From the NCBI GenBank assembly GCA_021201815.1, contig JAJQEC010000144.1, positions 828 through 64,827 on the forward strand: a stretch of DNA of 64,000 nucleotides, in the 5' to 3' direction. This DNA is from Candidatus Azobacteroides sp. Lineage in GTDB: Bacteria > Bacteroidota > Bacteroidia > Bacteroidales > WRGA01. A program made the translations under genes and the position numbers. This document shows, one piece after another, positions 5,573 to 62,102 of the stretch. The notes below the pieces were generated by a model that had not been told where the DNA came from, searched no databases, and saw only the letters and a list, made by a program, of their open reading frames with translations. The stretch's first letter is position 1. Each line of letters opens with the position of its first letter.

Positions 5573-5675
5573 ATGATGCTGCATCGGCTTCCGGATGACG
5601 CTACGTCATTTTCCGGACGACGCTACGTCGTTTAAAAAATGACGTAGCGTCGTCAAAAAAACGATGTAGCGTCAT
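5573..5675. repeat. Array of five hairpin units at exact 22-bp period (array 1)
   Basis: Five 15-bp units with 6-bp arms and a 3-nt centre start at 5573, 5595, 5617, 5639 and 5661, each exactly 22 bp after the last. Examples are ATGACG-CTA-CGTCAT at 5595-5609 and ACGACG-CTA-CGTCGT at 5617-5631. Units 3 and 4 also form a 14-bp perfect inverted repeat with each other (5616-5629 and 5641-5654), and units 2 and 5 pair with one mismatch, so larger nested hairpins are possible. A degenerate sixth unit may sit at 5683-5697. The rest of the 5491-6159 gap shows only AT-rich sequence and the hairpin at 6011. Function unknown. Confidence 0.85.
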
Positions 5676-6010
5676 CCGAAATCTCACTAAACGTTGTTAA
5701 AAATATGCCATAGATGGTTATTTTTGTGATGAAAAGCATGTATAACGCCTTTATTGCTTTTGATTTTGCTTTTCCGGAGAGAAAAAATTGCTTCCCTTGT
5801 GAAAATAATATTTATGAAAAGGCTTTTTGTATTCCTTATTGCTAAATAAAAATTTAATATTTCCCCTTGTGGATGATATATATAGTATAGTAGTTAGTAA
5901 CCTGTGATATAACATATTTTTTCTGGAAAACCCGTCTCTTTTTATCTGCCAGCTTTGCTGTTTTTACCAAAGCCACCTTGCTGGAGTTGGATTTAACCGG
6001 TTATAAAGAA

Positions 6011-8968: not shown

Positions 8969-9022
8969 ATGAAGCATTGATGTGGGGGCATTAATCTTTT
9001 CAATCAGGGTGACAACCTGGAT

Positions 9023-9086
9023 AATATGCCAATGTGATAATGTGCCAATATGCCAATATGCTAATGTGCTAATGTGTGAATATACT
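9023..9086. repeat. 8-bp tandem repeat, eight copies
   Basis: Eight consecutive octamers fit AATRTGNN (AATATGCC, AATGTGAT, AATGTGCC, AATATGCC, AATATGCT, AATGTGCT, AATGTGTG, AATATACT). It lies about 270 bp before the TTAA promoter of the SusCD operon. Copy number may vary between strains. Confidence 0.85.
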
Positions 9087-9112: not shown

Positions 9113-9190
9113 AAGCCACGTAGTGGCGCCATATCATTAGCCGTGCTGCCTCAGCCCACGGTCCTCTTGTGCTGCCTCAGCTCATGGCCC
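9113..9190 (-). repeat. Two-hairpin module, copy B (minus) plus a half copy
   Basis: Hairpin GCCAC-GTA-GTGGC at 9115-9127 and hairpin GCCGTG...CACGGT at 9140-9162 are separated by a 12-nt linker (9128-9139), the same length as in copies C, D and E. A second, decayed first hairpin (GTGCTGCCTCAGCTCATGG) follows at 9169-9187. Confidence 0.7.
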
Positions 9191-9320
9191 TCTCATCCCC
9201 CCTTTCTCCTTTATTTTTTTCATTAAACCTTTGTTAAGGTAAGTTTCCTTTATTTCAGTTGTAAATTAAATTCCCTATAAACCAGTATATTATATTTTTT
9301 TTTAAGATAAATTAAGGTGA

Positions 9321-41660: not shown

Positions 41661-42045
41661 CAATCTATTTTTTTGTTAACTATCTTCAGATATCTTTCTG
41701 AATGGTCATCTTCCCGTTGAATTATATGTATTTATTTACATAACGGAACTTTTATGTTCGGTGTTTCTTCAGCGCCGTGTTGCTTTTTGCCGTGTGCTGA
41801 GGCCTCACGGCTAATGATATGTCGCCACTCCGTGGCTTGTCGGTGAGATGTCCATATACTCTTATATTAGCTCCGCTGAACATGTTGGACGACATTAAGA
41901 GAAACCCTTCCGTGTACTCTCACCACCAAAGGCACCCCCAGACCAGCAATACCAAGCCCATGAGCTGCGTAGCTTTGTGTCGTGAGCTGAGGCCAATGCC
42001 GTTAACTTAAGACTGATCTCCTTCTGTCAGATCGTTTTGTGTAAC
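41661..42045. other. Intergenic repeat region, first part
   Basis: No gene is supported. It contains the two-hairpin module copy C (41789-41836) and a decayed relative around 41960-42000 (GAGCTGCGTAGCT, GTCGTGAGCTGAGGC). Confidence 0.55.
41789..41836 (+). repeat. Two-hairpin module, copy C
   Basis: Hairpin 1 GCCGTG / CACGGC (41789-41794, 41806-41811), a 12-nt linker, then hairpin 2 GCCAC-TCC-GTGGC (41824-41836). Linker length is identical in copies B, D and E. Confidence 0.75.
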
Positions 42046-43538: not shown

Positions 43539-43587
43539 GAATCCCTTCCTGTACTTTCTCAGCCAGAGGCAATCCCGAACCATTACT

Positions 43588-43635
43588 ACCGTGGGTTGAG
43601 GTCTCACGGCTAATAACATATCGCCACTCCGTGGC
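43588..43635 (+). repeat. Two-hairpin module, copy D
   Basis: Hairpin 1 ACCGTG / CACGG(C) (43588-43610), 12-nt linker, hairpin 2 GCCAC-TCC-GTGGC (43623-43635). Confidence 0.75.
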
Positions 43636-43780
43636 TTCTTTGTGAGCTGGCTATCCACTCTTACATTGGCAACGTTGAAGTTTGTTTAACAACATTGTAA
43701 GAATGCCTTCCTGCACTCTCATAGCCAAAGATAATCCGGAACCAGCAATCCCATCCCAATGACAAAATACCAGCCTTCGA

Positions 43781-43828
43781 GCCGCGTAGCGGCGTCATAT
43801 AACTAGCCGTGCTGCCTCAGCTCACGGT
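43781..43828 (-). repeat. Two-hairpin module, copy E (minus), with compensated stem
   Basis: Hairpin 2 is GCCGC-GTA-GCGGC (43781-43793), where the other copies have GCCAC/GTGGC, so an A-T pair is replaced by G-C. Hairpin 1 is GCCGTG / CACGGT (43806-43828). The linker is again 12 nt. Confidence 0.75.
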
Positions 43829-43988
43829 CTTATTTTTCATTTATGAAAAATAATAAATTTATATAATAGTCCATAAATATTTATTTTGTATAGCACTTCT
43901 TTGTTAAATATTAATTTAATAAAAAGGCATATTTTTACCTTATCCGACCTGTTTTTATATAAAAAATGATCCTTTTTTACAAACTGTC

Positions 43989-44139
43989 CAACTATCCCGT
44001 AATAGTTATTCAACTAATACGGGATAGTTGTCCAACTAATATGACATAAATGTCCAACTAATACGGGATAGTTGGGCATTTTTAACCGAAAAAACGGCCT
44101 TTTTGCCGTATTAGTTGACCCACTTTAGTACTAAAGTGG
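43989..44139. repeat. Array of hairpin units at 22-bp period (array 2)
   Basis: Units start at 43989, 44011, 44033 and 44055, exactly 22 bp apart; units 2 and 4 are identical (CAACTAATACGGGATAGTTG, arms CAACTA/TAGTTG), unit 1 is in inverse orientation and unit 3 is decayed. After one degenerate period, a half-unit begins at about 44098, and a different perfect 20-bp palindrome (CCACTTTAGTACTAAAGTGG, 44120-44139) starts 22 bp later. ACGGC-CTTTTT-GCCGT (about 44093-44109) makes a further hairpin. Same period as array 1 at 5573 but unrelated unit sequence. Confidence 0.85.
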
Positions 44140-44899
44140 AACGTTTTTAGTAAAAAAATAGGAGTTTTTTACCTGGTTTTATCCCTGTTTTCCCTGAAAA
44201 GGCCGGGAAATAGCAGGCGATGGTACAGAAAGAAGGAATAATGCACGGTTCCCCTTACTGTGGAAAGAGGAAGAAGAACCACAATAATTTCCTTTCCCTA
44301 TGCGTAGGAAGGTTACAGAAAGGAACGGAAAAAGATTGGAGGCAGAAAGAATATCGTGTTTTTCTTCTTTTGTATTTTTAGTCGTTAAATAAAAGTTTAA
44401 TGGATAGATGTGATATACAGGCACACTTCTTCTTTCTGTAAAAATCAGCAGAAGCGTTGAAAATATATATCTGAAAAATAAAGATTCCATATCTTATTCC
44501 CTGTTTTGGGGCTTTTATTTATTTGCAGATACAAATATACAATCAAAAAAGGTAAAATGCAAATATTTGCTGTATTATTTTCAAGTTAAATAAACGTTAG
44601 AAGAAACGGATGAAATTTATTTCTCCCTCCATCCATTCTCTTTCATTAAAAAAATAAGTATTGTACGGTAAATAAAAATCCTTTTCATGGTGCAAAAATA
44701 ATTCCCGGAATATCATTTCAAGGCAAAAAGAAAAAGGTAAAAACTAAAACCTGCTACCGATTTTAGCTCTTCCCTCTTACTTTTTACCTTCTCTTCTCTT
44801 AATTTTTCCCTTAATTGGTGTCGGCTAGAGGTACTCCCTGAAAAAATATTCTTTTGAAAAACAGCACTATATTATCTATTCCGGAAAAAAAATAATCCA
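44140..44899. other. AT-rich intergenic region before the GH92 promoter
   Basis: No gene is supported; a 103-aa minus frame at 44179-44490 shows no recognisable features. An imperfect 14-bp inverted repeat (AAGGTAAAAACTAA at 44734-44747, complement with one mismatch at 44777-44790) is related to the hairpins at 49431 and 51025. Confidence 0.5.
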
Positions 44900-44944: not shown

Positions 44945-45038
44945 TTGCGAAGATATAAATACATGAAAAATAATCCTCTGCTTTTTACAAAATAAGTAGT
45001 GTATAAAGCAGGCAATTATGAATAAACAAAACATAACT

Positions 45039-47222
45039 ATGAAAAGCACACTTTTATATTTACTCTCCGTCCTGTTCCTTTTTTCTGCCTGTCAGAAAGA
45101 AGAAAAACAAGACCGCTTACTGGATTACGTAGACCCGTTTGTCGGAACGGCTTATACCGGGCATACTTTTCCCGGAGCTACTTACCCGTTCGGACTGATG
45201 CAGCCAGGTCCGCAGACCGGTAATTTCGAATGGAAATACTGTGCCGGATATAAATACGAAGACCCTCTTATCTGGGGCTTTACCCAGAACCGGCTTAATG
45301 GTACCGGGATTCCGGACCTGGGGGATTTGTTAGTTATCCCGTTTTCAGGAGACGGAGGACAAGAGCTGAAAAGTACTTTCTCTAAAGAAACAGAAAAAGC
45401 ATCTCCCGGCTATTATACGGTTGAATTGATAGATAATGCCGTGAAAGTAGAACTTACTGCTACTCCCCATGTTGCCATGCATCGATACCGGTTTATGAAA
45501 GAAAACCCGGCTGTCTGCATTGATTTTCAGAACGGACAGGTAAGTACGGAACAGGATTATGAGAACCGTGTCCTTTTTGCGGAAGTAAATATTGAAGACG
45601 AACAGACCATTACCGGTCACCATAAGGTAAGGGCATGGACAGACCGGCAATTATTTTATGTAATAAAATTTGAAAAACCTTTTATTGCCCAGGAGACCAT
45701 ACAGACTACTCTGCAGGGGAAAGCTCCACGGAAAATATTCCGGTTTAATGAAAAAGAAAAAGAGGTTCAAATAAAAGTTGCCTTTTCTACGGTCAGTATA
45801 GAAGGAGCAAAGAAGAACCTGGAAGCAGAATCCGTACATTGGGATTTCGACCGGGTAAGGGAAGATGCGGAAAATACCTGGGAACAATACCTTTCCCGTG
45901 TTTCCATCAAAGGTTCGGAAGAACAGAAAAAGAATTTTTATACTTCGTTGTATCATTTGTTGATTCAGCCTAATAATATCGCCGATGTAGATGGAAATTA
46001 CAGGGGAGCAGACGACATGGTAGCCAATTCTCCTTTCGGCAAGTATTATTCTACCTTTTCCCTCTGGGATACCTATCGGGCTGCACATCCCATGTATACC
46101 ATTCTAGCTCCGGAAATGGTGCCGGAACTGATCAACACAATGATTATCCATGCCGAAACCTATGGATATCTCCCGATCTGGGCATTGTGGGGAAAAGAAA
46201 CCTATTGTATGATCGGAAACCATGGGGTGCCGGCAGTTGTGGAAGCATGCCTGAAAAATTTTCCGGGTATCGACCAGGAAAGAGCATACAGCATGGTAAA
46301 ACAATCTCTCACCGGAAATCATCGCAAATATGACTGGCAGATGTATGACCAGTACGGGTATTTCCCTTTTGATCTGGTAAAGGAAGAATCTGTTTCCCGC
46401 ACCTTGGAATGTGCCTATGATGACTATTGCGCTGCGCTGCTGGCAAGGAAACTCGGAAAAGAAGAAGACTATGAGTTCTTCTTAAAACGCTCCGGATATT
46501 ACAAAAACCTGTTTGACCCGGATACGAAACTGGCGAGAGGAAAAGATTCCAAAGGCAACTGGCGGAATCCTTTTGACCGGTACCACTTATCTCATGCCGG
46601 TACTGCCGGGGGAGATTATACGGAAGGAAATGCATGGCAGTATACATGGCATGTACAACAGGATGTGGATGGACTGGTGGAATTGATGGGTGGAAAAGAA
46701 GCATTCGCCACCAAATTAGATTCTTTGTTTGTACTGGAGAAAGAAGTGGAACAAACCGGTTTTGTCGGAGATGTGACCGGGCTGATCGGACAGTACGCAC
46801 AGGGAAATGAACCCAGTCATCATGTCATTTACCTCTATACGCTTGTCGGAAAGAACTGGCGTACCGCAGAGCTTGTAAGAGAGATATTTGATAAGTTTTA
46901 TCTTCCGAAGCCCGATGGCTTGTGTGGAAATGATGACTGCGGACAAATGTCTGCCTGGTATATGTTCAGTGCCATGGGATTTTATCCGGTCAATACCGTA
47001 AACAAGCAATATGTGATCGGAGCTCCCCAGATACCCGAAATAAAAATCAGCCTGCCGGGGAATAAAACATTTACCGTAATTGCACACAATCTTTCCGAAC
47101 AGAATAAATACGTGAAAACAATAACATATAATGGCGTTGAGATTAATGATTTTATTATTACGTACGATCAGATCATGGCAGGGGGAGTTTTAGAATTTGA
47201 GATGATGGATACGCCCTTATAA
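45039..47222 (+). CDS. GH92 exo-alpha-mannosidase lipoprotein
   Basis: Calcium-dependent alpha-mannosidase of family 92. ATG 45039 (727 aa) is preferred to 45018 because it gives a compact lipoprotein signal (FSAC, Cys18). DYVDPFVGTAYTGHTFPGAT is the standard family opening and PFGLMQPGPQTG follows. QGNEPSHH (Glu591, candidate general acid) and GNDDCGQMSAWYMFSAMGFYPV (about 630-651, carrying the acidic base residues and Ca site) are complete, so an active classical GH92 is expected. First gene behind the TTAA promoter at 44900. Confidence 0.95.
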   Translation: MKSTLLYLLSVLFLFSACQKEEKQDRLLDYVDPFVGTAYTGHTFPGATYPFGLMQPGPQTGNFEWKYCAGYKYEDPLIWGFTQNRLNGTGIPDLGDLLVIPFSGDGGQELKSTFSKETEKASPGYYTVELIDNAVKVELTATPHVAMHRYRFMKENPAVCIDFQNGQVSTEQDYENRVLFAEVNIEDEQTITGHHKVRAWTDRQLFYVIKFEKPFIAQETIQTTLQGKAPRKIFRFNEKEKEVQIKVAFSTVSIEGAKKNLEAESVHWDFDRVREDAENTWEQYLSRVSIKGSEEQKKNFYTSLYHLLIQPNNIADVDGNYRGADDMVANSPFGKYYSTFSLWDTYRAAHPMYTILAPEMVPELINTMIIHAETYGYLPIWALWGKETYCMIGNHGVPAVVEACLKNFPGIDQERAYSMVKQSLTGNHRKYDWQMYDQYGYFPFDLVKEESVSRTLECAYDDYCAALLARKLGKEEDYEFFLKRSGYYKNLFDPDTKLARGKDSKGNWRNPFDRYHLSHAGTAGGDYTEGNAWQYTWHVQQDVDGLVELMGGKEAFATKLDSLFVLEKEVEQTGFVGDVTGLIGQYAQGNEPSHHVIYLYTLVGKNWRTAELVREIFDKFYLPKPDGLCGNDDCGQMSAWYMFSAMGFYPVNTVNKQYVIGAPQIPEIKISLPGNKTFTVIAHNLSEQNKYVKTITYNGVEINDFIITYDQIMAGGVLEFEMMDTPL

Positions 47223-51125: not shown

Positions 51126-53402
51126 ATGATGTGTCGTGAAACTATTAAACTGCGTATAATCATTCTTTTAATGGTTATTACATGTATTTCCTGTGAGAAG
51201 AAAACAGCGCCGGAGAGGAAAACACCGGTTGATTATGTGAACCCTTATATCGGGAATATCAGCCATCTGCTGGTACCTGCTTATCCTATGGTGCACCTGC
51301 CGAACAGTATGTTGAGAATTCAGCCGTTGAGAGATGATTTTACCGGAAATAAACTCCGGGGATTACCTGTATTCCTTACAGGACACCGTACGTATCAGGC
51401 ATTTACATTTAGTCCTTTTCAGGGAGATATAACTTCGGTAAACAATGTGATTCATTATGAATACGACCATGAAATAATAAAGCCCTATCAATATAATGTT
51501 TATCTCACAAATGTCGAAGCGGAAGTTCGTTTTGCTCCTTCCCACCAGTCCGGGATCTATGAAATAGATTTCCATGGAACCGATTCTCCTTCCCTTATGG
51601 TAAGTACGACAGATGGCTGGCTGACAGCCCATGATAATGTCGTGTCCGGATGGCAGTATATCGGTGGAAAAAAGACAAAGGCTTATCTTTATATGGAAAC
51701 TCAGTTACAGCCTGTTTCTGTTACTCCTGTTCCGACCGGTAATCCATCATCACAGGTAACTGACGGGACACAACCAATGGCTGTGAAACTGGCATTTGAT
51801 CCTCAGCAAAGAAAGCTCAATATCCGTTATGGAGTCTCACTTATCAGCGAGGAACAGGCAAAGAAAAACCTATACCGGGAAATACCGGATTACGATCTGG
51901 ATGCCCTTGCCGGTAAAGGCCGGGATATCTGGAATGAAGCATTAGGTAAAATCCATGTGGAAGGACAGGAAAAAGATAAAGTTATTTTTTATACTTCTCT
52001 ATACCGGTATTATGAACGAATGATTTGTATTTCCGAAGACGGAAAGTATTACAGCGGTTTTGACGGGAACGTCCATGAAGATGACGGTATTCCTTTCTAT
52101 AATGACGACTGGCTCTGGGATACTTTCCTTGCCGCTCATCCTTTGCGGGTTATCCTGGAACCGGAGAAAGAAAACCACATGCTGCAATCTTTTGTCCGGA
52201 TGGCAGAACAAATGGAAAACTTCTGGTTACCTACTTTTCCGGAAGTCGTTGGGGATACAAGAAGAATGTTCGCGAATCATGGAATCCTTTCTATACTGGA
52301 TGGATATGAAAAAGGGTTACGGGGATTTGATCTGGAGAAAGCTTATCTGGCCGGAAAAACTTCCTTGACAGAACGAACTCTGGCGCCATGGTCAGATAAA
52401 AAGGCCGGACAACTGGAGCAGTTTTATAAAGAAAACGGGTATTTTCCTGCCCTTGCACCGGGAGAAAAAGAAACTGTCCCGGAAGTGGATGCGTGGGAAA
52501 GAAGACAGCCTGTCGCAGTTTCCCTGGGTACGGCATATGATGAATGGGGATTGGCACACCTGGCAAGGCATCTCGGAAAACAAGACGAATATGAATATTT
52601 CCTAAACAGGAGTTTCAATTACAGAAAGCTATTCCATCCGGAAACCAGGTTCTTCCATCCTAAAGATGCAAGGGGCAATTTTATCGAATCTTTTGACTAT
52701 CGCTTTTCCGGAGGATTGGGTGGACGGGATGCGTATGATGAAAATAACGGATGGGTATACCGCTGGAATGTCCAGCACAATATTTCCGACCTGATAGAGA
52801 TGATGGGTGGAAAGGAAGCTTTTGTGGATTCGCTGGAGAGCATGTATGATACGCCTCTTGGGAAAGATAAATATGTATTTTATTCCATATATCCTGACCA
52901 TACCGGAAATGTCGGGCAATTTTCCATGGCAAATGAACCCGCCCTGCATATTCCTTATCTGTACAATTATGCCGGACAACCCTGGCGAACCCAAAAACGC
53001 GTCCGTACCTTACTGGAACAGTGGTTCCGGGATGATGTGATGGGATTACCCGGTGATGAGGACGGAGGCGGATTAACTTCTTTTGTTGTTTTTTCTTCCT
53101 TAGGCTTTTATCCGGTAACCCCCGGTTTGCCTATGTATGTAATCGGTAGTCCCGTATTTGAAAAAGCCCTTGTTCAATTACCGGATAACAAAACGTTTGA
53201 AGTTATTTGTCATAATTATTCTCCCACGAATAAATACATTCAGTCAGCAAAATTCAATGGAAAAGAATGGAATAAATCCTGGTTTCCTCATGCCGAACTG
53301 ATAAAAGGCGGAACACTGGAACTGACCATGGGGAAATATCCTAATAAAGAGTGGGCGTCTTCCCCGGAAAGTGTACTGCCGTCCTTTAAGATGGGAGAGT
53401 GA
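51126..53402 (+). CDS. Divergent GH92-family lipoprotein, copy 2
   Basis: Family 92 fold, but of a different subgroup from 45039: opening TPVDYVNPYIGNISHLLVPA, then MANEPALHIPYLYNYAGQPWRTQKRVRTLL (retaining the N-E-P acid) and PGDEDGGGLTSFVVFSSLGFYPVTPG. The usual D-C-G-Q-M-S-A-W-Y signature is replaced by D-G-G-G-L-T-S-F-V, so linkage or substrate preference probably differs. Lipobox CISC. 758 aa. Close paralogue at 59814. An upstream ATG two codons in may be the alternative start. Confidence 0.88.
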   Translation: MMCRETIKLRIIILLMVITCISCEKKTAPERKTPVDYVNPYIGNISHLLVPAYPMVHLPNSMLRIQPLRDDFTGNKLRGLPVFLTGHRTYQAFTFSPFQGDITSVNNVIHYEYDHEIIKPYQYNVYLTNVEAEVRFAPSHQSGIYEIDFHGTDSPSLMVSTTDGWLTAHDNVVSGWQYIGGKKTKAYLYMETQLQPVSVTPVPTGNPSSQVTDGTQPMAVKLAFDPQQRKLNIRYGVSLISEEQAKKNLYREIPDYDLDALAGKGRDIWNEALGKIHVEGQEKDKVIFYTSLYRYYERMICISEDGKYYSGFDGNVHEDDGIPFYNDDWLWDTFLAAHPLRVILEPEKENHMLQSFVRMAEQMENFWLPTFPEVVGDTRRMFANHGILSILDGYEKGLRGFDLEKAYLAGKTSLTERTLAPWSDKKAGQLEQFYKENGYFPALAPGEKETVPEVDAWERRQPVAVSLGTAYDEWGLAHLARHLGKQDEYEYFLNRSFNYRKLFHPETRFFHPKDARGNFIESFDYRFSGGLGGRDAYDENNGWVYRWNVQHNISDLIEMMGGKEAFVDSLESMYDTPLGKDKYVFYSIYPDHTGNVGQFSMANEPALHIPYLYNYAGQPWRTQKRVRTLLEQWFRDDVMGLPGDEDGGGLTSFVVFSSLGFYPVTPGLPMYVIGSPVFEKALVQLPDNKTFEVICHNYSPTNKYIQSAKFNGKEWNKSWFPHAELIKGGTLELTMGKYPNKEWASSPESVLPSFKMGE

Positions 53403-59813: not shown

Positions 59814-62102
59814 ATGGTTAGTATAAAAAGAAAAGCTGTTAAAACGGACTTATTTTACCTCTTTATTTCCGTCTTTATTTTTATCTCTTTTTCCTGTAAC
59901 CGGGAAAAAACGGATTCTTCTAAGCGAACTCCGGTTGACTATGTAAATCCTTATATCGGAAATATCAGCCATTTGCTGGTACCCACCTATCCTATGACCC
60001 ATTTACCCAACAGCATGTTGCGGGTACAGCCTAACAGAATAGATTATACCTTTGATGTGGTAGACGGTTTGCCGATCCTTAAAACATCTCACCGGGGCGC
60101 AACAGCTTTCCGGCTGAACCCGGTCAATCGGTTGCAGGAAGATAGCCTGATAAAAAAGAAATACGTGTATGACAATGAGAAGATCACTCCTTATCATTAT
60201 TCCATGGACCTGATAGAAGAAGATATTGCAGTAGAATTTGCTCCTTCTCATCAGTCTGCTATTTATCAATTGACATTCGGACAGGGAAACGGAAACATCA
60301 TCCTGACTACAGCTAACGGCAGACTGGAATATACGGACAATGCCATCCGGGGATATCAGCAGTTTTCCGGGAATACGAAGGTATATCTGTATATGGAAAG
60401 TCAGGAGAAACCTTCAAAAATTGCCGTGCTGGACAATAATATTCCGGATTACACGGTTACCGCAGGGGAAGGGAAGAATACGGCTCTCCTCCTCTCTTTT
60501 GAGAAACCGGAAGTACGGATTCGGTATGGAATTTCTTATATCAGCATAGAGCAGGCAAAAAGTAATCTGCAACGGGAAATCGATACATACAATGTAGAAA
60601 CGATAAGCCGGCAGGGAAAAGAAAAGTGGAATGAAGTGCTTGGAAAAATTAGGGTAGAAGGAGTCTGTGAAACACAGAAAACAGTTTTCTATACTGCTCT
60701 TTACCGCACCTATGAACGAATGATTACTATTTCCGAAGATGGGAAATATTACAGTCCGTTTGATGGTCAGATGCATATGGACCATAACCGTTCTTTCTAT
60801 ACGGATGACTGGATATGGGATACGTATAGGGCTACTCATCCGCTCCGGACAATTATCGAACCGGAGATGGAACAGGATATGCTGAATTCTTTTATCCTTA
60901 TGGCTCAGCAGACAGAAACAAAATGGCTGCCGACTTTTCCGAGTGTTCATGGAGACAGCCATGGAATGAATGGAAATCATGGAGTGATTACTCTTTGGGA
61001 TGCCTGGCAGAAAGGCCTGAGAAATATGGACATGCAGGCTGCCTTTGAATCTTCGAAAAAGACTTTGCTGGAAAAATCTATTCTTCCGTACCGGGCTGTA
61101 CCACATACCGAACTGGACAAGATATATCTGGAGAAAGGATATTTCCCGGCACTTGAACCCGGCGAAAAAGAATCCCTGGATATCGTGCATCCTTATGAAA
61201 AACGCCAATCGGTAGCCATTACACTGGCAGCTTGTTATGATGACTGGTGCCTGGCACAGATGGCCAGGGAAATGGATGAAAAGGAAACAGCCGAATACTT
61301 TCTGAACCGGAGTTTTAATTACCGGAATATTTATAATGAACAAACCGGATTCTTCCATCCCCGAAACCGGAAAGGTGAATTTATTCAGCCGATGGATTAT
61401 GCTTTCTCCGGAGGAAAGGGCGGACGGGATTATTACGATGAAAATAACGGGTGGATATATCGCTGGGAAGTCCCACAAAATATAAAAGACCTTATTCGAC
61501 TGATGGGTGGAAAAGAGGCTTTTTCCGCAAACCTGGATGAAACATTCCGCAAACCGCTGGAAATATTCAAACCCGACTTTTTCGGAACGTTTCCTGACCA
61601 TACCGGTCTGGTCGGACAATATTCCATGGGAAATGAACCTTGTTTACATATTCCTTATCTGTATAATTACGTAGGTCAACCGTGGAAAACCCAGAAAAGA
61701 GTCCGGGAACTACTTTCCCAATGGTTTCGGAATGATCTGATGGGCATGCCCGGTGACGAGGACGGAAGAGGAATGTCTGCCTTTGTCGTCTTTTCTTCTC
61801 TGGGATTTTATCCGGTAACTCCCGGCTTGCCTATGTATGTGATCGGTAGTCCTGTTTTTGAATCTGCCACAATTGAGCTGCCGGAAGGGAAAACCTTTCA
61901 GGTAATCTGCCACAACTATTCTCCGGAAAACAAATATATCCGGTCGGCAACCCTGAATGGAAAAGAATGGAATAAATCCTGGTTCAGTCATCAGGATCTC
62001 ATGCAGGGTGGAAAACTGGAATTTGTCATGGGAAAATATCCGAACAAAATGTGGGCTTCTTCCGAGGAAGCTATACCTCCTTCTTTTGAATGGGAGCATT
62101 GA
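59814..62102 (+). CDS. Divergent GH92-family lipoprotein, copy 3
   Basis: Close paralogue of 51126-53402: opening TPVDYVNPYIGNISHLLVPT, NEPCLHIPYLYNYVGQPWKT, PGDEDGRGMSAFVVFSSLGFYPVTPG and the tail NGKEWNKSWF. As in copy 2 the D-C-G-Q signature of classical GH92 is altered (D-G-R-G). Lipoprotein signal ends SFSC. 762 aa. 63 bp after the oxidoreductase, so likely the third gene behind promoter 57500. Confidence 0.88.
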   Translation: MVSIKRKAVKTDLFYLFISVFIFISFSCNREKTDSSKRTPVDYVNPYIGNISHLLVPTYPMTHLPNSMLRVQPNRIDYTFDVVDGLPILKTSHRGATAFRLNPVNRLQEDSLIKKKYVYDNEKITPYHYSMDLIEEDIAVEFAPSHQSAIYQLTFGQGNGNIILTTANGRLEYTDNAIRGYQQFSGNTKVYLYMESQEKPSKIAVLDNNIPDYTVTAGEGKNTALLLSFEKPEVRIRYGISYISIEQAKSNLQREIDTYNVETISRQGKEKWNEVLGKIRVEGVCETQKTVFYTALYRTYERMITISEDGKYYSPFDGQMHMDHNRSFYTDDWIWDTYRATHPLRTIIEPEMEQDMLNSFILMAQQTETKWLPTFPSVHGDSHGMNGNHGVITLWDAWQKGLRNMDMQAAFESSKKTLLEKSILPYRAVPHTELDKIYLEKGYFPALEPGEKESLDIVHPYEKRQSVAITLAACYDDWCLAQMAREMDEKETAEYFLNRSFNYRNIYNEQTGFFHPRNRKGEFIQPMDYAFSGGKGGRDYYDENNGWIYRWEVPQNIKDLIRLMGGKEAFSANLDETFRKPLEIFKPDFFGTFPDHTGLVGQYSMGNEPCLHIPYLYNYVGQPWKTQKRVRELLSQWFRNDLMGMPGDEDGRGMSAFVVFSSLGFYPVTPGLPMYVIGSPVFESATIELPEGKTFQVICHNYSPENKYIRSATLNGKEWNKSWFSHQDLMQGGKLEFVMGKYPNKMWASSEEAIPPSFEWEH

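Follow-up and report, generated by a model that had tools for sequence, protein, structure and literature searches.

The window, a 64,000-nucleotide stretch of contig 117 in a draft genome of 4.2 Mb, carries two arrays of short palindromic units. Array 2 begins with a type A unit on the minus strand (CAACTATCCCGTAATAGTTA, 43989..44008; two mismatches to the type A unit), followed on the plus strand by an exact type A unit (CAACTAATACGGGATAGTTG, 44011..44030), a degenerate unit (CAACTAATATGACATAAATG, 44033..44052), and a further exact copy of CAACTAATACGGGATAGTTG (44055..44074), both exact copies being detected by a unit search. As the initial annotation had described, these units start exactly 22 bp apart at 43989, 44011, 44033, and 44055, and the degenerate form at 44033 was found by element alignment to be kept in most type A sister copies. 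The phase is picked up again by a half-unit at approximately 44099-44118 within a conserved scaffold (AAAAAACGGCCTTTTTGCCGTATTAGTTGA, 44089..44118, plus strand), and a perfect 20-bp palindrome, the type B unit CCACTTTAGTACTAAAGTGG, occupies 44120..44139. Array 1 consists of four GACGACGCTACGTCGTC units in 22-bp steps at 5594..5676. The array at 43989-44139 proved to be real by autocorrelation: tandem self-similarity was 48/66 at lag 22 and no more than 33 at any other lag; the corresponding values for array 1 were 50/66 and 29. When the whole window was scanned at lags 12-40 with a threshold of 42/66, arrays 1 and 2 passed at lag 22, and the other match was one unrelated lag-16 repeat near 9010. 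At 9022-9083, 8-bp units (TAATGTGC) form a short tandem repeat with period 8, 24, or 32. No match was obtained in an Rfam scan of the window.

Array 2 lies in a dispersed gene-less element of approximately 760 bp (approximately 43850..44590, minus strand), which comprises array, leader, and promoter, is homologous in nine loci, and has ends that are not sharply defined. Conservation within the element is highest around the motif TTTG-N20-TATATTTG (44532..44563, minus strand), which was recognised by eye and is directed at the array; from the general consensus, we take it to be a Bacteroidota-type promoter. A putative leader ORF of 103 amino acids, which begins with MESLFFKYIFSPLLLIFSEGK (44179..44490, minus strand) and had no Pfam match, occupies the place of the HU-HIG gene in the HU-bearing sister elements. 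In this leader ORF (approximately 100 amino acids, also at the sister loci L060-L069), the first 20 residues are conserved and the remainder is divergent in most gene-less elements. GH92-type glycosidase genes were observed at 45018-47222, 51126-53402, and 59814-62102, with at least nine relatives in the genome. No orthologue of the GH92 gene beside array 2 was found in two relatives from the genus that were compared for an empty site (best identity, 41%). A second dispersed intergenic repeat family with CCACTCCGTGG and GTGCTGCCTCAGCCCACGG palindromes was seen at 9116-9193, 41825-41835, 43565-43640, and 43785-43835 of the window, and also at the HU-HIG loci L071 and L072.

The genome was surveyed by pattern searches and family searches. 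The type A unit CAACTAATACGGGATAGTTG occurred at seven loci, array 2 being one of them, with 22 matches at up to two mismatches and one further match at three mismatches (reversed control, 1), and the unit steps in these loci were 22 and 44 bp. Four further loci (C58, C80, C96, and C142) had the type B palindrome as their main unit, and the array 1 unit was present at three other places. A scaffold, AAAAAACGGCCTTTTTGCCGTATTAGTTG, was found in nine loci including C96 and C151, and AAAAAACGGCCTTTTTGCCGTATTAGTTGA was likewise common to the arrays of these two loci, which have other palindromes: those of C96 are mostly type B, and those of C151 have a third sequence, CAACTACCTTAAGGTAGTTG. Homologous frames thus carry different palindromes with the period unchanged. 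The suggestion that unit sequences are locus-specific holds only in part, since type A occurs in seven loci and type B in four more, but the units do differ between HU-HIG genes. A unit common to dispersed copies is tied to an HU-HIG gene, not to a locus.

This link to HU-HIG genes (PF18291/TIGR01201), which the arrays adjoin, was absent from the initial annotation. HU-HIG proteins are small and histone-like and constitute a branch of the HU/IHF family in Bacteroidota. The genome has 21 PF18291 matches, and an array lies 3' of 11 short-class HU-HIG genes, most of them with their own unit, such as AATGACCGGTCGTT (C14), AAAAGCGGATGCGCTTTT (C131), AAAAAGCCCGGGCTTTTT (C26), and CACTTTAGTACTAAAGTG (C96). 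In C113, C96, and C151, the array is approximately 65-75 bp from the end of the HU-HIG gene, which matched PF18291 with E values of 1e-22 to 1e-24; nine other homologous loci keep the Bacteroidota-type promoter and the leader and have no HU gene. Every array-linked protein tested against Pfam scored above the PF18291 cut-off of 26.2 bits (62.8-104 bits in the window genome), indicating that they belong to the HU-HIG family. Against the NCBIfam model TIGR01201 (HU_rel; cut-off, 68.6 bits), the array-linked proteins tested gave hits of 83-93.5 bits for the main clade, above the cut-off, and of 55 and 57.9 bits, below it, for two proteins of the window genome. The arrays at L079, L082, L083, and L084 in the same genome were closer to lag 21 or weak by autocorrelation, and those of L079, L083, and L084 were recognised from their units. 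No 22-bp array was found 3' of the long-class HU-HIG genes L071-L075, where the sequence examined for L074 and L075 was shorter than 150 bp. The long-class proteins (L071-L075 and L086) have a C-terminal extension; their genes, several of them at contig ends, lack 22-bp arrays and may sit in other repeats.

On contig 8 (C8), a decayed HU-HIG gene is followed by an array of the same unit as array 1. Both arrays of the window are thus gene-less relatives of two HU-linked arrays. The gene-less copies in the window genome retain the promoter and leader of the gene, and they therefore look like deletion derivatives of an element that consisted of an HU gene plus an array. Dispersal differs among units: the C131/C12 unit had 58 matches in the window genome against 3 for the control, and the C14 unit is private to its own gene.

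Arrays of this kind were also present outside this genome. Four close homologues from other Bacteroidales families had 21-22-bp arrays 3' of the stop codon, with a different unit in each. A scan of genome contigs gave 80 named homologous loci in Bacteroidales and Flavobacteriales, including those of Breznakibacter, Mangrovibacterium, Marinifilum, Chryseobacterium, Riemerella, Myroides, Flavobacterium, and Empedobacter. Among these loci, which were chosen by protein similarity and hence are not independent, the 300 bp 3' of the HU-HIG gene reached at least 40/66 at some lag in 50 of the 73 testable loci and contained a lag-22 array of at least 40/66 in 47 of the 73; on the 5' side, the 300 bp flanking the gene reached this level in 2/79, at lags 14 and 24, and at lag 22 in 0/79. 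Of the dinucleotide shuffles, a fraction of 0.0007 reached 40/66 at any lag. In a large branch of HU-HIG genes, the array is located within approximately 100 bp of the stop codon and rarely upstream of the start. Strong lag-22 arrays were also observed downstream of more distant HU-HIG genes at L150, L155, and L160, and upstream at L159, L163, and L165. Four loci (L163, L165, L159, and L258) had lag-22 arrays upstream and not downstream, and three of these HU-HIG genes are of the MKYxx type. For many more distant HU-HIG genes, which adjoin prophage or amidase genes, no array was seen in the flanks scanned. Plasmid and phage HU-HIG matches have other neighbourhoods, and two annotated plasmid regions adjoin peptidoglycan hydrolases. 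The proposal of the initial annotation was supported. It had named two findings that would speak against it, namely an absence of further 22-bp arrays from the genome and a lack of enrichment at lag 22; 22-bp arrays proved numerous both here and in relatives, and enrichment at lag 22 far exceeded that at neighbouring lags.

Most units read AAAA-N10(palindromic)-TTTT-N4 (59 loci, 181 distinct units). Both tracts, A and T, are strong, and base composition is near uniform in the columns of the N4 spacer. The core varies between genes and the period remains constant, so that the combination of a constant period and diverged palindromes first noted at array 2 is the rule: 176 units from 52 loci contained 94 distinct cores. 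Dyad pairing was approximately 75% and persisted to the very centre (76% for pair 9:10 and 62% for pair 8:11), these figures being somewhat inflated because the units were selected for palindromy. The type A, B, and C units of the window lack the AAAA/TTTT frame seen in the main clade and belong to a side branch. Arrays with new units are present in unrelated families. In Breznakibacter xylanolyticus (G296), the two-unit pattern occurred 17 times against 1 in the reversed control, and the spacers were N4 in 14 of the 17 and N3 in 3, with no other length. Its gene-less arrays repeat composite units of the HU gene arrays of the same genome, L249 and L250 resembling the array of L121, and L251 and L252 that of L133. 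Dispersal is not universal, since the reversed-control count equalled or exceeded the pattern count in several of the 24 genomes. The genome of L245 (G318) had an unusually high load of dispersed arrays: each strand gave 109 matches to the two-unit pattern, and the reversed control gave 14.

The array-linked protein is predicted to have the HU fold with an extra N-terminal strand (AlphaFold model, pLDDT 92.5); the model contains the two helices and the beta-saddle of the HU/IHF fold, and its best solved structural match was BVU_2165 (4fmr, Z 10.1), with HU chains at Z of approximately 9. Core similarity followed protein identity (Mantel rho 0.28; 0/1000 permutations). After overall identity was removed, residues 4, 85, and 105, which sit on three different beta strands of the AlphaFold model, associated best with the core (max-T p of 0.0005, 0.001, and 0.012, respectively), and among close pairs the top residues were 105, 104, 29, and 85 (p of 0.005-0.05); phylogeny was controlled only in part in these tests. 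Residues 85 and 105, placed by HMM alignment, lie in the two strands that make up the saddle of HU. Neither of them stood out in a cruder residue test with distant pairs, and the co-variation of the core with these beta-strand residues is accordingly suggestive and not proof.

The arrays are associated with HU-HIG genes, they keep a fixed period with changing palindromes, and they have dispersed cognate copies. The explanation that we consider best, and probably correct, is that an HU-HIG protein binds each array, whose units would be its phased sites on the DNA, accompanied by dispersed satellite copies. Specific binding by the linked HU-HIG protein, which we infer from sequence comparison, would occur through a homodimer that reads the dyad sequence via its beta-saddle (positions 85 and 104/105). 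Because 22 bp corresponds to approximately two helical turns, the step would align consecutive dimers along the same face of the helix, where they could assemble cooperatively into a nucleoprotein array. An array beside its gene might serve autoregulation or insulation, and dispersed arrays might link or mark loci on the chromosome; the dispersed copies would have spread by some route of recombination or transposition. HU is the textbook non-specific bacterial analogue of histones. The classical binding mode of HU proteins shows little preference for sequence (PMC6907758), and this counts against the explanation, as do the weak or near-lag-21 arrays of the window genome, the lack of the AAAA/TTTT frame in the type A, B, and C units, and the many more distant HU-HIG genes with no array.

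It seems unlikely that the arrays are simply REP/MITE-like selfish repeats copied by a trans-acting enzyme, with HU-HIG as a passenger or helper of the element, although the resemblance of the dispersed gene-less copies to internal-deletion derivatives and the patchy distribution (27 of 295 Bacteroidales genomes matched at E<=1e-25) are in favour of it. A precedent also exists, since in the RAYT-REPIN and REP-BIME systems a palindrome-flanked gene coevolves with its palindromes, of which dispersed cognates are found (PMC2817692, PMC3116915), and the layout of the arrays resembles that of RAYT-REPIN. However, the gene in those systems encodes a Y1/HUH tyrosine transposase, whereas the gene that recurrently adjoins the arrays encodes the HU-fold DNA-binding protein HU-HIG; the GTAG/GTGG head of REPINs is absent from the array units listed, and the arrays have a fixed 22-bp tandem layout with no flanking inverted pair. 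Inspection by eye of the element alignment revealed no terminal inverted repeats at the element ends, and the element contains no transposase. Moreover, HU-HIG adjoins arrays repeatedly across two orders, transposition needs no strict 22-bp step, and the C14 unit stays with its own gene.

Somewhat less probable still is an action of the hairpins at the RNA level, in which the array would terminate transcription through several hairpins or form the 3' portion of an HU-bound non-coding RNA, like naRNA4 from REP325 in E. coli. Arrays often start within approximately 30 bp of the stop codon, the promoter directed at the array is kept in gene-less elements, and E. coli HU acts with REP-derived naRNA4 (PMC6907758). 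In nine loci of the window genome, however, a separate hairpin, mostly with a T-rich tail, follows the stop codon and precedes the array, so the array is not the terminator there, and its reading as an intrinsic terminator was rejected; at loci elsewhere, the array 3' of the gene can be the first hairpin. The centre pairs of the dyad could not be used by the loop of a single-unit RNA hairpin, and symmetry through the centre was therefore counted in favour of DNA binding. Core mismatches (81 G.T and 61 A.C) gave no clear sign of RNA wobble, adjacent orientable cores were direct in 54 cases and not in 21, and terminators do not require a 22-bp step. A functionless satellite, in which replication slippage homogenises a palindrome near the gene, would explain by concerted change why units within one array are more alike than those of different arrays, but it is very improbable, since slippage predicts varied periods whereas lag 22 outweighs all other lags from 12 to 40 at loci of two orders, the spacer is free in sequence and fixed in length, and the cores change yet stay palindromic.

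Phased binding sites for HU-HIG also have partial counterparts among known systems. The nearest functional precedent is HU with naRNA4/REP325 in E. coli, where an HU-family protein works with palindromic DNA or its RNA, and the nearest in Bacteroidales is the P. gingivalis HU protein PG0121, which prefers a 77-bp inverted repeat at the capsule locus (PMC3969353). Both of these involve REP clusters or single inverted repeats, with structure preferred over sequence, and paralogue-specific 22-bp arrays are not described for them. The tandem-repeat MITEs of Porphyromonas, cited earlier as a loose precedent, turned out to be a different thing: BrickBuilt elements of P. gingivalis are likewise tandem repeats of short units scattered through a Bacteroidales genome, but their 23-nt repeats are direct and share one consensus, and the elements have insertion-sequence terminal repeats (PMC4596501). 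Identity with BrickBuilt was rejected because the arrays have 22-bp palindromic units of other sequence and no terminal inverted repeat in the element alignment. CGTC-tagged REPs are small palindromes that occur without a dedicated transposase, Bacteroidetes included, but their stems of 8-9 bp carry a CGTC tag at the end, they form mostly head-to-head dimers, and they are rarely clustered, and neither 22-bp arrays nor an HU link is described for them (PMC3733652). Linked DNA arrays are absent from the descriptions of the HU-HIG family (PF18291; TIGR01201) that were found. A search of the open-access literature yielded no description of HU-HIG-linked arrays, which is weak evidence of novelty.

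These results suggest a family of histone-like proteins, each reading its private DNA landing strip. It is possible, although we hold this broader view only tentatively, that they represent an undescribed class of system, in which sequence-specific HU proteins of Bacteroidota each have a private phased array and dispersed satellites, specificities switch jointly with the 22-bp geometry kept, and parallel, orthogonal nucleoprotein networks operate in one chromosome. If so, sequence-specific and paralogue-private chromatin sites would be common in Bacteroidota, the expansion of HU-HIG genes would be offered a function, and the dozens of protein-core pairs would provide a natural specificity series for how the HU fold reads sequence.
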